From positions 1-64,000 of the forward strand of contig JAFYSJ010000031.1 of assembly GCA_017559445.1 (NCBI GenBank): DNA of 64,000 nucleotides. The letters run 5' to 3'. The position numbers were made by a program, and so were the translations under genes. Each line of letters begins with the position of its first letter. Positions within the stretch are counted from its first letter, which is position 1. The notes under the pieces were generated by a model, which was not told the DNA's origin, did no database searches, and saw only the letters and a program-made list of their open reading frames with translations. This document shows positions 29,568 to 36,560 of this stretch, piece by piece. The stretch is from Clostridia bacterium. GTDB taxonomy: Bacteria > Bacillota > Clostridia > RGIG7378.

Positions 29568-29592
29568 AAAAATTGTCTTCAGACAATTTTTC
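29567..29592 (-). terminator. Hairpin at the end of the DUF1015 gene
   Basis: GAAAAATTGTC pairs with GACAATTTTTC around TTCA; the structure includes the stop codon at 29579-29581. On the minus strand the descending arm ends in CAATTTTTC, compatible with an intrinsic terminator although AT-rich. Confidence 0.55.
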
Positions 29593-30805
29593 TCACTTCC
29601 ATATAATATCTCTTATCCATTGCTTCACCCATGGAGAATGCCTTTCGTGGCAAAGCACCGCTCCTGGACACGCTTTCCATAACACCTGCCTTGGAAATAG
29701 CTGGCAACAAGATACCTATGCCACCATCTCTGTCGCAGATTGTCTTAAGATCCTGCTCACCATGGATGTAGTCAACCTCTATCTCATTTTCTTCAGCATA
29801 TCTATCCAAGAACATCTGGATTGGCTTAACCACCATTGGAATAGATGCATCTGTATATACAGGGATTTCGTTACTATCTGCATACAATGTGAAGATTGGT
29901 GTATCTCCCTCTGCGTCAAGCTGGATGCCCTCCTCTGCAAAGTATGCTGTCATTGCATCAAAAAAGTTTTCCATTTCTGCCTTAAGCACAACTCTGTGAA
30001 TTGGCTCAAAGTCCAATGCCTGGTCATGGATATTAACTACCTCAACCAATGCAAATCTAGCAGGGTGGTTTGCATCTGCTCCATTTGCCTTAAGCTGCTC
30101 CCACAATGCCTTAGCTGATGCCAAAGAATGGTTACCATCTCCTACTGCAAAGAGCATGCCGCCCTCAGACTCCATGGACTCCATTGCCTCGATCAAGGTC
30201 ATGGCTGTGTCCTGTGCCACCTTGTATCCTGTAATATGTCCACCATTTGCCATAAGGTCCAAATCGTAGATCACGTCCTTGTTTCCTTTTGTTGTGATGC
30301 TGTCTAATGTGAAATTTGGATCGTCTACCAAAAGCATTACGTGAGGCATTTCCAATCTTGCGCTGGCACGAATCTTTACGCGAGGTGGAATTCTGCTAAT
30401 TACTGTAGCCTCGGATGCTCTGATAAGAGCCTGCTTTGATGGGTCAAAGTCGTATGCCTCCAGGTCAATTGCCACAAGCCAACCGTGACGTGTTTTGCTA
30501 TTGGAACTACCTCTCTCAATATATGTAATATACTCACCCTTGTTTTCTAAGATTCCATCTGCCATGTACTGTGCCATGTGACCATCAATACTAGCTAATC
30601 TCTCCTCTGTTGCAGGGAGATATACCTCTGGAAGCATCATCCTAAGGGTAGAAGGTGCATCTGCTACTACCTTTTCAACCTCTGCCCAATACTCAGGCTG
30701 GGATGTGTACTGATCACATGCAATGCATGCCCACCTTGTCAAATCCACCTTTTCATTAGGCATCCAAACCTCTGGAATAGCAATTCCCTTTTTGCTTACG
30801 TACAT
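29579..30805 (-). CDS. DUF1015 family protein
   Basis: A 408-residue DUF1015 protein. The family's WACIACDQYTSQPEYW at about residues 25-40, VGDGNHSLASAKALWE at about 222-237 and FEPIHRVV are all present. DUF1015 genes are common near serine metabolism genes in Clostridia, but the biochemical function is unproven. GGAGG precedes the ATG. The 3' end is fused to a hairpin and the tandem array. Confidence 0.88.
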   Translation of the reverse strand: MYVSKKGIAIPEVWMPNEKVDLTRWACIACDQYTSQPEYWAEVEKVVADAPSTLRMMLPEVYLPATEERLASIDGHMAQYMADGILENKGEYITYIERGSSNSKTRHGWLVAIDLEAYDFDPSKQALIRASEATVISRIPPRVKIRASARLEMPHVMLLVDDPNFTLDSITTKGNKDVIYDLDLMANGGHITGYKVAQDTAMTLIEAMESMESEGGMLFAVGDGNHSLASAKALWEQLKANGADANHPARFALVEVVNIHDQALDFEPIHRVVLKAEMENFFDAMTAYFAEEGIQLDAEGDTPIFTLYADSNEIPVYTDASIPMVVKPIQMFLDRYAEENEIEVDYIHGEQDLKTICDRDGGIGILLPAISKAGVMESVSRSGALPRKAFSMGEAMDKRYYMEVRKIV

Positions 30806-33236: not shown

Positions 33237-34163
33237 CTAATTCATTGGTGTAATTTTGTCAATTTCGTAAGGTGTTGTCTGGTAAACGAAGTAGTTCAAC
33301 CAGTTAAAGTACAACAAATGTGCATGGCTTCTCCAACGCACAATTGGCTCCTTAGTATCATCATCATTGGGATAGTAGTTCTTGGGTACCTCAATTGGCA
33401 ATCCAAGAGCCTTATCTCTACGATACTCTGCATCCAATGTGTTGGGATCATACTCAGAGTGACCTGTAATGAATACCTGTCTACCACCCTCTGTGGCCAA
33501 TGCATAAATGCCGGCCTCTTCGGATGTGGCCAAAATCTTAAGCTTATCGCAAGCTTCGATGTCAGCTCTCTCAACTGTTGTATGTCTAGAATGAGGTGCA
33601 TAGAATTCATCGTCAAAGCCTCTCATAAGCATGGAGGAACGTCTCTCAACCTTATGAGGGAATACTCCAAAGAGCTTAGCATCCAATGGAACCTTATGAA
33701 TACCGTAGTGGTAATAAAGTCCTGCCTGTGCTCCCCAACAAATATGGAAGGTGCTATGTACGTGAGTCTTGGACCACTCCATGATCTCACAAAGTTCCTG
33801 CCAATAAGTTACCTCCTCAAAGTCCATCTGCTCTACAGGTGCACCTGTAATAACCATGCCGTCAAAGAATCTATCCTTAACCTTATCAAAGGTTGTGTAG
33901 AACTTAAGCATGTGCTCCTCTGAGGTGTTCTTAGCCTTGTGTGTAGCTGTCTGCATGAGCTCAAGTTCAACCTGCAAAGGTGTGTTGCTGAGCATACGAG
34001 CAAGCTGTGTCTCTGTAGCTACCTTAGTAGGCATCAAATTAAGCACCAAAATCTGAAGGGGTCTCATATCCTGCTGGATAGCCCTTGTTTCGGTCATTAT
34101 GAAAATGTTCTCATCGGTGAGCACCTTTGCTGCTGGTAACTCGTTGGGAATTTTAATGGGCAT
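33237..34163 (-). CDS. metA: Homoserine O-acetyltransferase (MetA family)
   Basis: A 308-residue MetA. The catalytic Cys142 lies in [18 protein letters not shown], and the His/Glu partners follow in [10 protein letters not shown]. Residue 111 in [10 protein letters not shown] is Glu. In this family Glu111 goes with acetyl-CoA use (Bacillus cereus type) and Gly with succinyl-CoA (E. coli type), so O-acetylhomoserine is the predicted product. This matches the metY gene just upstream (3-bp gap), which uses O-acetylhomoserine. First step of methionine synthesis from homoserine. Confidence 0.93.
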
Positions 34164-34166
34164 TAA

Positions 34167-35450
34167 TTAGTCCTCCAATGCCTGTGCAATGTCTGCAATA
34201 AGGTCTTCTGCATCCTCAATACCACAAGAGAATCTTACCAGATCTGGGGATACTCCTGCAGCTGCCAATTCTGCATCGTTCATCTGTCTATGTGTTGCTG
34301 AAGCTGGGTGCAAGCAGCATGTTCTTGCGTCTGCAACATGAGTCTCAATAGCAGCCAACTTAAGCTTGCCCATGAATGCCTCTGCTGCATCTCTGCCGCC
34401 CTTTACGCCGAAGCTTACTACACCGCATGTGCCGTTAGGCATATACTTCTGTGCCAATTCGTACTGGTCATCTCCAGGAAGGCCTGGGTACTTAACCCAT
34501 GTTACCTTTGGATGGCTCTGCAAGAACTTAGCTACTGCCAAGCCGTTGTCGCAGTGTCTCTTCATACGAACATGAAGGCTCTCCATACCAAGGTTGATGT
34601 AGAAAGCGTGCTGAGGAGACTGGATAGCACCAAAGTCTCTCATAAGTTGCACTGTAGCCTTAGTAATGAATGCTCCTGCAATACCAAATCTCTCTGTGTA
34701 TGTTACGCCATGGTAGCTGTCATCTGGAGTGCAAAGTCCAGGGAACTTCTCTGGATACTTAGTCCAATCGAACTTACCGCTGTCGATGATTGCACCACCA
34801 ACAGATACACCGTGACCATCCAAATACTTAGTTGTGGAATGTGTAACGATATCTGCTCCATGCTCAAAAGGTCTGCAGTTAACAGGTGTAGCAAATGTGT
34901 TGTCTACGATAAGTGGTACACCATGTGCATGTGCTGCAGATGCGAACTTGTCAAAGTCAAGAACTGTAAGAGCTGGGTTAGCAATAGTCTCTCCAAAAAC
35001 AGCCTTTGTATTAGGCTTAAATGCTGCATCCAACTCCTCCTGTGTGCAGTCAGGTGCAACGAATGTGAAATCAATACCCATACGCTTCATTGTAACTGCG
35101 AAAAGGTTGTATGTACCGCCGTAAATGCTAGATGTGCTAACGATGTGATCGCCTACTCCTGCAATGTTGAAAATAGCGAAGAAGTTAGCTGCCTGACCTG
35201 AAGATGTAAGCATACCTGCTGTACCACCCTCAAGCTCTGTAAGCTTAGCTGCTACGTAATCGTTAGTAGGGTTCTGCAATCTTGTATAGAAATAACCGCT
35301 TGCCTCAAGGTCAAAAAGCTTACCCATGTCGGAGCTAGTTGCATACTTAAATGTGGTGCTCTGATATATCGGAATCTGTCTAGGCTCACCATTGCCAGGA
35401 GTGTAACCACCCTGTACACACTTAGTACCCAAACCCTGTCTGTTGTCCAT
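34167..35450 (-). CDS. metY: O-acetylhomoserine sulfhydrylase MetY
   Basis: A 427-residue PLP enzyme of the Cys/Met metabolism family that makes homocysteine from O-acetylhomoserine and sulfide. Signatures are QIPIYQSTTFKY near the N-terminus, the PLP-phosphate region SSGQAANFFA, and the Schiff-base lysine in THSTTKYLDGHGVSVGG (about residue 210). First gene of a metY-metA operon, with GGAGG before its ATG and a structured leader with terminator upstream. It lacks the trans-sulfuration partners in the window. Confidence 0.94.
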   Translation of the reverse strand: MDNRQGLGTKCVQGGYTPGNGEPRQIPIYQSTTFKYATSSDMGKLFDLEASGYFYTRLQNPTNDYVAAKLTELEGGTAGMLTSSGQAANFFAIFNIAGVGDHIVSTSSIYGGTYNLFAVTMKRMGIDFTFVAPDCTQEELDAAFKPNTKAVFGETIANPALTVLDFDKFASAAHAHGVPLIVDNTFATPVNCRPFEHGADIVTHSTTKYLDGHGVSVGGAIIDSGKFDWTKYPEKFPGLCTPDDSYHGVTYTERFGIAGAFITKATVQLMRDFGAIQSPQHAFYINLGMESLHVRMKRHCDNGLAVAKFLQSHPKVTWVKYPGLPGDDQYELAQKYMPNGTCGVVSFGVKGGRDAAEAFMGKLKLAAIETHVADARTCCLHPASATHRQMNDAELAAAGVSPDLVRFSCGIEDAEDLIADIAQALED

Positions 35451-35483
35451 AAAAACCTCCTATACAGCACATAGATGATGTGT

Positions 35484-35524
35484 AAAAAAATAAAGGCGTC
35501 CAATGGCTGTAACCAAAGACGCCT
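35484..35524 (-). terminator. Intrinsic terminator in the metY leader
   Basis: On the minus strand AGGCGTC pairs with GACGCCT around a 17-base loop, then TTTATTTTTTT. It ends about 34 bp before the metY ATG, so it would stop transcription before the coding region. This is the hallmark of an attenuated leader. Confidence 0.85.
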
Positions 35525-35527
35525 GCA

Positions 35528-35558
35528 AATCGAATTCTCGTATTTTAAGAGAACGATT
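35528..35558 (-). other. Second hairpin in the metY leader
   Basis: AATCGTTCTC pairs with GAGAATTCGATT (a TT bulge) around TTAAAATAC. Its 5' arm shares bases with the 3' strand of the outer helix of the upstream structured element, so the two folds exclude each other. Confidence 0.6.
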
Positions 35559-35625
35559 AGTAGGCCAAAACGAGCATTATCATGTTCCACATGTGACACA
35601 TCATATTGGGCCCGCTCCTCTCTTA
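35546..35625 (-). promoter_or_regulatory. Candidate methionine-pathway riboswitch upstream of metY
   Basis: Minus-strand RNA: an outer helix UAAGAGA/UCUCUUA (35619-35625 with 35546-35552) encloses GAGC (35614-35617) paired with GCUC (35572-35575). Inside is a small hairpin CAUGU-GGA-ACAUG (35581-35593). GGCC after the first GAGC can pair with GGCC at 35563-35566, beyond GCUC, giving a pseudoknot. A terminator follows. The SAM-I core and the T-box UGG-CCGCG motif are absent. Ligand unknown; SAM, methionine or a relative is inferred from the genes controlled. Confidence 0.55.
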
Positions 35626-35720
35626 AAAACCTCTATAAATTCTATTTCATATGGTGTTTTTTGTCAATCCTAGAAGGGGGTATCGCGCACCTGTAAAGCA
35701 CACGAAAATCACTTATATTT

Positions 35721-36560
35721 CTACTCTAAATCTACTGTGTTGGTCAGCGTTTTTACTGCCTTTCTCCTTGCTCTTTTTACAAAGACTATGATAAGTATGC
35801 CTGATACTAAGGCCACAAACACAACTGCTCCACAGATTATGTAAGCCAATTGGACCCTAGTTAAGGATTCCTTTTCTATTTCAACAAGGTTATCTATGGT
35901 TGAGACCGGAGCTTGAACAAAAATCTCTCTAACCTCTTCTGCTGAAAGTGCAGCTTCTGACTCTGAAAATTCTACATATTCGCACTCGTAAACATAATCC
36001 TTATACTGAATTACACAACTCCAAATATAAGCTGGCTTGCCATCTCTTTTACTATATTCCTCTTCCTCTAAATACAACCTTACATTATCACTCAACGTCA
36101 TAAAAGGTTCGCAATCCGAGATAATATATTTATACAACCTCTTATACATATCATACGAATAATCCTCACTCGATGGAGACATAAGATAGTAGTCTATATA
36201 AGCATTCTCACTAACCTCAAAATAAAGATTAACTCGTCCCGTTTGAAAACGATAATAAACATCATAGGGCAACTTTTCCTGTGGAATTGGAAACTCGACT
36301 GTCTTCAACAGCTTAACTAAATCATGAACATACTGATTACTTTCTTTACCATAGCCAAAGTAAAAATGCTTGGTATAGTCAATATCCTCATCCTTAGAAT
36401 ATTCTTTTCGCAACTCTCGATCTATCTTTATCAAGTTTTCTATTTGTAACGAATTTAAATGACACACTTTTGCATCTATAACGTATGCTCCTGCTGGCTG
36501 ATAAAACAAGGAGCAAACTAAAATAGATAACACAAGCATAAATGCTAATCTTTTCTTCAT
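35721..36560 (-). CDS. Exported single-pass membrane protein of unknown function
   Basis: A 279-residue protein. A signal peptide (about residues 1-25, ending QPAGA) is followed by an extracytoplasmic domain rich in Tyr, Glu and Asp. One transmembrane helix near the C-terminus (about 239-262, YIICGAVVFVALVSGILIIV) precedes a short basic tail. The layout resembles TPM/YgcG-like exported proteins, but the TPM motifs are not seen, so no family is assigned. GGAGGACAAT precedes the ATG. Its codon use is AT-rich. Confidence 0.6.
   Translation of the reverse strand: MKKRLAFMLVLSILVCSLFYQPAGAYVIDAKVCHLNSLQIENLIKIDRELRKEYSKDEDIDYTKHFYFGYGKESNQYVHDLVKLLKTVEFPIPQEKLPYDVYYRFQTGRVNLYFEVSENAYIDYYLMSPSSEDYSYDMYKRLYKYIISDCEPFMTLSDNVRLYLEEEEYSKRDGKPAYIWSCVIQYKDYVYECEYVEFSESEAALSAEEVREIFVQAPVSTIDNLVEIEKESLTRVQLAYIICGAVVFVALVSGILIIVFVKRARRKAVKTLTNTVDLE

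Follow-up and report, generated by a model that had tools for sequence, protein, structure and literature searches.

Transcription attenuation by a leader peptide is an old mechanism, with classical trp, his, thr, leu and phe cases in enterobacteria. Control of methionine genes in Gram-positive bacteria has been described via SAM-I riboswitches, T-boxes and repressors. In Firmicutes, His leader peptides have been described (PMC2965389, PMC9413887), as has a Leu leader peptide in S. aureus (PMC5794164). A 2005 survey of Actinobacteria reported no conserved RNA structure before methionine operons (PMC1262725). For methionine a leader-peptide route seems barely described, while the mechanism itself is known: we found one weak precedent, the metL leader peptide proposed before metNIQ in Streptomyces lividans (PMC8079986). 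Like the metY leader described here, metL is a Met-containing leader peptide of a methionine-related operon. It differs in serving a transport operon from a leaderless transcript in a single genome, with two internal Met in 29 residues and no intrinsic terminator recognised (PMC8079986). No methionine leader peptide for a biosynthesis operon was found in searches confined to the open-access literature.

In the window (the whole 64,000-nt stretch of Clostridia DNA that was analysed), the leader preceding metY and metA is very probably, judging from its sequence, a ribosome-mediated transcription attenuator which senses methionine via a Met-rich leader peptide and controls metY-metA. Its parts, in order of transcription, are as follows.

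35639-35667, minus strand: sigma-70 type promoter, TTGACA (35667-35662), 17 nt, TAGAAT (35644-35639), 11/12 consensus
35609-35628, minus strand: region 1, UUUUAAGAGAG GAGC GGGCC (sequence and fold)
35619-35615, minus strand: AGGAG, Shine-Dalgarno (SD)-like site of the leader ORF, within region 1
35604-35557, minus strand: leader peptide ORF, MMCHMWNMIMLVLAY and stop codon; 15 codons, 5 Met (positions 1, 2, 5, 8 and 10)
35554-35565, minus strand: region 2, GCCUACUAAUCG, antiterminator 5' strand (the final two codons, the stop and the next 3 nt)
35521-35532, minus strand: region 3, CGAUUUGCAGGC, antiterminator 3' strand, overlapping the terminator 5' arm
35494-35524, minus strand: intrinsic terminator hairpin, AGGCGUCUUUGGUUACAGCCAUUGGACGCCU, -16.9 kcal/mol
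35484-35493, minus strand: terminator U tract, UUAUUUUUUU, 33 nt ahead of metY
35456-35460, minus strand: GGAGG, metY Shine-Dalgarno site (sequence)
34167-35450, minus strand: metY, O-acetylhomoserine aminocarboxypropyltransferase, the controlled gene (TIGR01326, 576.9 bits, cutoff 495.1)
33237-34163, minus strand: metA, homoserine O-acetyltransferase (NF047918, 502.5 bits, cutoff 460.5)

A promoter, TTGACA-17-TACAAT, is located at the matching place in the relative L085, and transcription in the window would be expected to start near 35632. metA begins 3 nt past the end of metY, and the two genes presumably form one operon, the product of which is homocysteine, a methionine precursor. The predicted proteins on either side, of 279 aa (35724-36560, minus strand) and 408 aa (29579-30805, minus strand), are without an NCBIfam match. 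As in the classical attenuators, there is an SD site, a small ORF enriched in the regulatory codon, predicted 1:2 / 2:3 / 3:4 competition and a U-tailed terminator, and the operon makes the amino acid which that codon specifies. Unlike in the classical cases, the regulatory codon is AUG, and the sequence is unrelated to any Rfam leader family.

The leader ORF, which was overlooked in the initial annotation, fills the inner hairpin proposed there. It reads ATG ATG TGT CAC ATG TGG AAC ATG ATA ATG CTC GTT TTG GCC TAC TAA, with scattered Met codons and no Met triplet. It lies between promoter and terminator with AGGAG upstream, at a long SD-to-ATG distance of 10 nt, and is predicted to be translated. 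In a genome of the same genus (G001), a counterpart at the same place encodes MMSNMMMPVSAY followed by a stop codon, with 5 Met in 12 codons (ATG ATG AGC AAT ATG ATG ATG CCC GTT TCG GCC TAC TAA). This ORF is 9 nt shorter through an in-frame indel, and the ORF end and the terminator arm are conserved. A search of 99 genomes with the leader DNA gave the sister genome as the sole true match; the exact leader is present in only two genomes. One further hit in L003 (G059:C11, 1501-1536), which matched the leader's end at 86% over 36 bp, lay in coding-like sequence and was rejected as probably due to chance.

The ORF, the cross-genome codon bias and the antiterminator-terminator competition presented below together argue for a leader that translates Met codons and thereby senses charged elongator Met-tRNA. 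We infer translation, stalling, a methionine response and a ribosome-free state, which would operate as follows. RNA synthesis would begin near 35632, and a ribosome would load onto the ORF of 15 codons. A shortage of charged elongator Met-tRNA would stall this ribosome at the Met codons and leave region 2 free, so that regions 2 and 3 pair, the terminator is blocked and metY-metA is transcribed. With ample Met-tRNA, the ribosome would reach the stop codon and cover region 2, allowing regions 3 and 4 to pair and transcription to terminate at the U tract. Without a ribosome, regions 1 and 2 would pair and the terminator would be favoured. By sequence and fold, the partners of region 1 in this last state are the ORF end and the bases just after it, and L085 has an equivalent long stem of different sequence.

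Since searches with leader DNA (L035, L027) gave few matches, the leaders diverging fast, metY orthologs were instead retrieved through their proteins, from genome contigs and from whole genomes, and 213 distinct upstream regions of related Clostridia were scanned. The nearest MetY proteins outside the genus belonged to MAGs labelled Ruminococcaceae, Oscillospiraceae or Clostridia. In 18 of the 213 regions, a small ORF opens with ATG and holds at least 3 Met within 8 residues, compared with 0-4 regions after shuffling (about 1 on average) and 1 when the reverse strand was scanned. When an SD site and a position in the last 330 nt were also required, 16 Met ORFs were observed against 0.12 expected (60 shuffles, maximum 1), an enrichment of over 100-fold. 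No other amino acid rose above 3-fold in the SD-required scan of the same 213 regions. The codon enrichment is Met-specific and is for the operon's own amino acid. Examples of Met leaders are MKMNMVSSMMMPCAVFGCF, MKSLYLNYNMMMCTCAFKN, MLKRTYNGFYMMMPITVFSRF, MYAIFTNSYMMMRRSAFKNT and MNMIHRAVMMMCDTACVNAL.

With L051 (MMRMCCC) and L155 joined by eye, the set came to 20 leaders, which we sorted into six families according to the sequences of terminator and leader; there is kinship within families, and the set represents about six independent cases. The leaders have no conserved sequence motif in common, and the wider support comes from leaders unrelated in sequence to that of the window. Many leaders have similar residues past the Met triplet (MMM-x-x-[SAT]-A-[FV]). 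The metY leader peptide of L051 (2867-2938), MMRMCCCEKVSFALCMPFLGRKM, has neighbouring Met and Cys codons, and its sequence suggests that both sulphur amino acids are sensed jointly. The longer leader peptide of L234 (G587), MKNKMMAMMMRMYLSMCFFLHAHQIVQ, contains seven internal Met; its terminator also differs, and it is apparently an independent case. A search of 394 genomes with the pattern ATGATGATG...CCKYCTT was discarded, as it returned mostly chance matches within coding frames. Inspection of ATGATGATG sites in genomes G000 and G001 gave no second convincing leader among the 30/55 sites read.

All 20 leaders have a U-tailed terminator hairpin after the ORF, placing an intrinsic terminator before the first gene. 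The last part of the ORF, stop codon included, is complementary to the terminator 5' arm and would serve as an antiterminator. If the freed RNA is taken to start 15 nt past the cluster's first Met, the RNA released by a ribosome on the Met codons is able to pair with the terminator arm in the predicted fold of 20/20 leaders; the codons just past the Met run join the terminator 5' arm. The energy of the 2:3 duplex compared with shuffles gave P values of 0.001-0.004 in most leaders and a combined P of 7e-11 over nine representatives. Values were 0.036 in the window, 0.111 in L085 and 0.107 in L051, and when longer stretches were compared the window duplex was not significant (P = 0.46). In the window, 10 of 12 positions of region 2 pair with region 3; both regions are identical in L085, which therefore lends no independent support. 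On these sequence comparisons, the 2:3 complementarity, and with it the predicted freeing of the antiterminator by a stall at the regulatory codons, is statistically strong over all families combined and weak in the window alone.

Covariation in six divergent leaders of family I supports this pairing. For their 2:3 helix 98.3% of cells were paired, against at most 53% when the strands were slid; three pairs had changed on both sides, and the score was reached by 3/500 shuffles. The same arm pairs 100% as the terminator helix. We also simulated the codon-by-codon walk of a ribosome along the leader; in the window the predicted antiterminator stayed likely as far as the Met cluster and was lost right past it. 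With a 15-nt edge, it was at 0.90 with the ribosome at Met5, 0.66 at Met8 and 0.14 at Met10, falling to 0.04 one codon further on; a 12-nt edge shifted the boundary by one codon. The boundary after MMM was equally sharp or sharper in L027, L152, L154, L155, L156 and L238, and blurred in L035 and L061. The predicted ribosome-free state of the window was not clean: pairing with upstream sequence took up 0.57 of the arm.

The initial annotation had described a structured leader with a possible pseudoknot and had proposed a different or strongly diverged methionine- or SAM-sensing RNA. The structure itself is real: the minus-strand leader folds at -46 kcal/mol (z = -3.66, with 0/200 shuffles as strong), and the outer helix UUUUAAGAGAG/CUCUUAAAA, the alternative hairpin UUCUC/GAGAA and the terminator (35524-35494) with its U tract (35493-35484) shortly before metY are all present as described. 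The proposed inner helix of GAGC (35617-35614) with GCUC (35575-35572) and the crossing pairing of GGGCC (35613-35609) with GGCCU (35566-35562) are likewise complementary. However, in the minimum-energy fold the former is unformed and the latter is nested inside the outer helix, and for this reason a pseudoknot is possible but unneeded. A new or strongly diverged aptamer, an H-type pseudoknot binding SAM, methionine or a related metabolite, would fit the low folding energy. It would also fit the preservation, in the sole close relative, of both crossing complementarities with compensating bases (GGGC/GCCC; GUAGGC/GCCUAC), a comparison of two sequences only; a helix of different sequence is also kept there at the outer position. 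Such an aptamer is nevertheless very unlikely. Its inner part is an ORF with strong Met bias, the leaders share no motif, and it leaves unexplained why that bias recurs before metY in leaders without shared sequence. At E <= 10, moreover, the sole Rfam match at the locus was ctRNA, at 15.7 bits against a threshold of 45. The leader is thus most likely not an aptamer, and the pairings taken for a pseudoknot make better sense as the alternatives that compete in an attenuator, mostly 1:2 plus part of the ORF. What stands of the earlier proposal is a methionine-related cis-regulatory attenuator that is neither SAM-I nor T-box; the metabolite-binding pseudoknot gives way to the leader ORF, its codon bias and the antiterminator-terminator competition. 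We allow a slight chance that the attenuator is combined with an H-type pseudoknot (GAGC/GCUC crossing GGGCC/GGCCU) in the untranslated RNA, which would bind a methionine-cycle metabolite or mask the ribosome site of the leader ORF; one RNA would then integrate two signals.

The Met codons could also owe their presence to the peptide rather than to tRNA charging. TnaC is an arrest peptide that senses tryptophan, and a Met-rich nascent peptide might itself stall the ribosome on sensing SAM or methionine, as the similar residues past the Met triplet in many leaders could suggest. That similarity is, however, accounted for by base pairing between the terminator arm and the codons for these residues, and the motif is absent from both the window peptide, which ends LVLAY, and its relative, which ends PVSAY. 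Since, in this geometry, a stall at the Met codons would turn the gene on, a stall induced by the product would have the wrong sign, and we consider nascent-peptide arrest highly improbable. ORFs of 15 codons are common, and the window's own 2:3 pairing is weakly above chance, as would be expected if a chance ORF preceded a constitutive or unrelated terminator. Against this stand the over 100-fold Met enrichment in 213 regions, conservation in frame in the sister genome and the combined duplex P of 7e-11, which make coincidence the least probable explanation, extremely unlikely in our view.

The absence of a known SAM or T-box class, noted by eye in the initial annotation, held in a scan with Rfam 15, in which nothing at the locus reached the gathering score. 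SAM-I (S-box, RF00162) also acts by transcription attenuation of Gram-positive methionine genes, but the covariance models of all Rfam SAM families had no match at the metY leader, and a genome-wide search of G000 and G001 found no SAM-I element. The methionine T-box (RF00230) likewise senses tRNA charging and controls termination. It binds the tRNA directly, whereas the leader would use translation, and the T-box covariance model (stem I, and antiterminator with the T-box sequence) gave no match at the locus. T-boxes were found elsewhere in these genomes, one in G000 before tyrS and two in G001 before tyrS and trpB. No Rfam match was obtained in any of 15 other Met-leader loci scanned, nor for most metY leaders scanned.

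To the SAM-I, T-box and repressor routes of methionine control, the metY leaders would add a leader peptide that gauges how far elongator Met-tRNA is charged, a route taken by several Clostridia leaders that look unrelated. Using an AUG run as sensor also poses the problem of preventing internal initiation. At metY the leader peptide apparently stands in for SAM-I. The metK genes of G000 and G001 are without a Met-rich ORF. In four other Met-leader genomes (L114-L117), a single SAM-I element precedes metK and metY has the leader peptide, which suggests that SAM sensing and methionine sensing are shared out between the two genes. In the relative L039, two T-boxes (729-973 and 2715-2940) lie about 2 kb apart; the second is directly before metY, occupying the place where others use a leader peptide.
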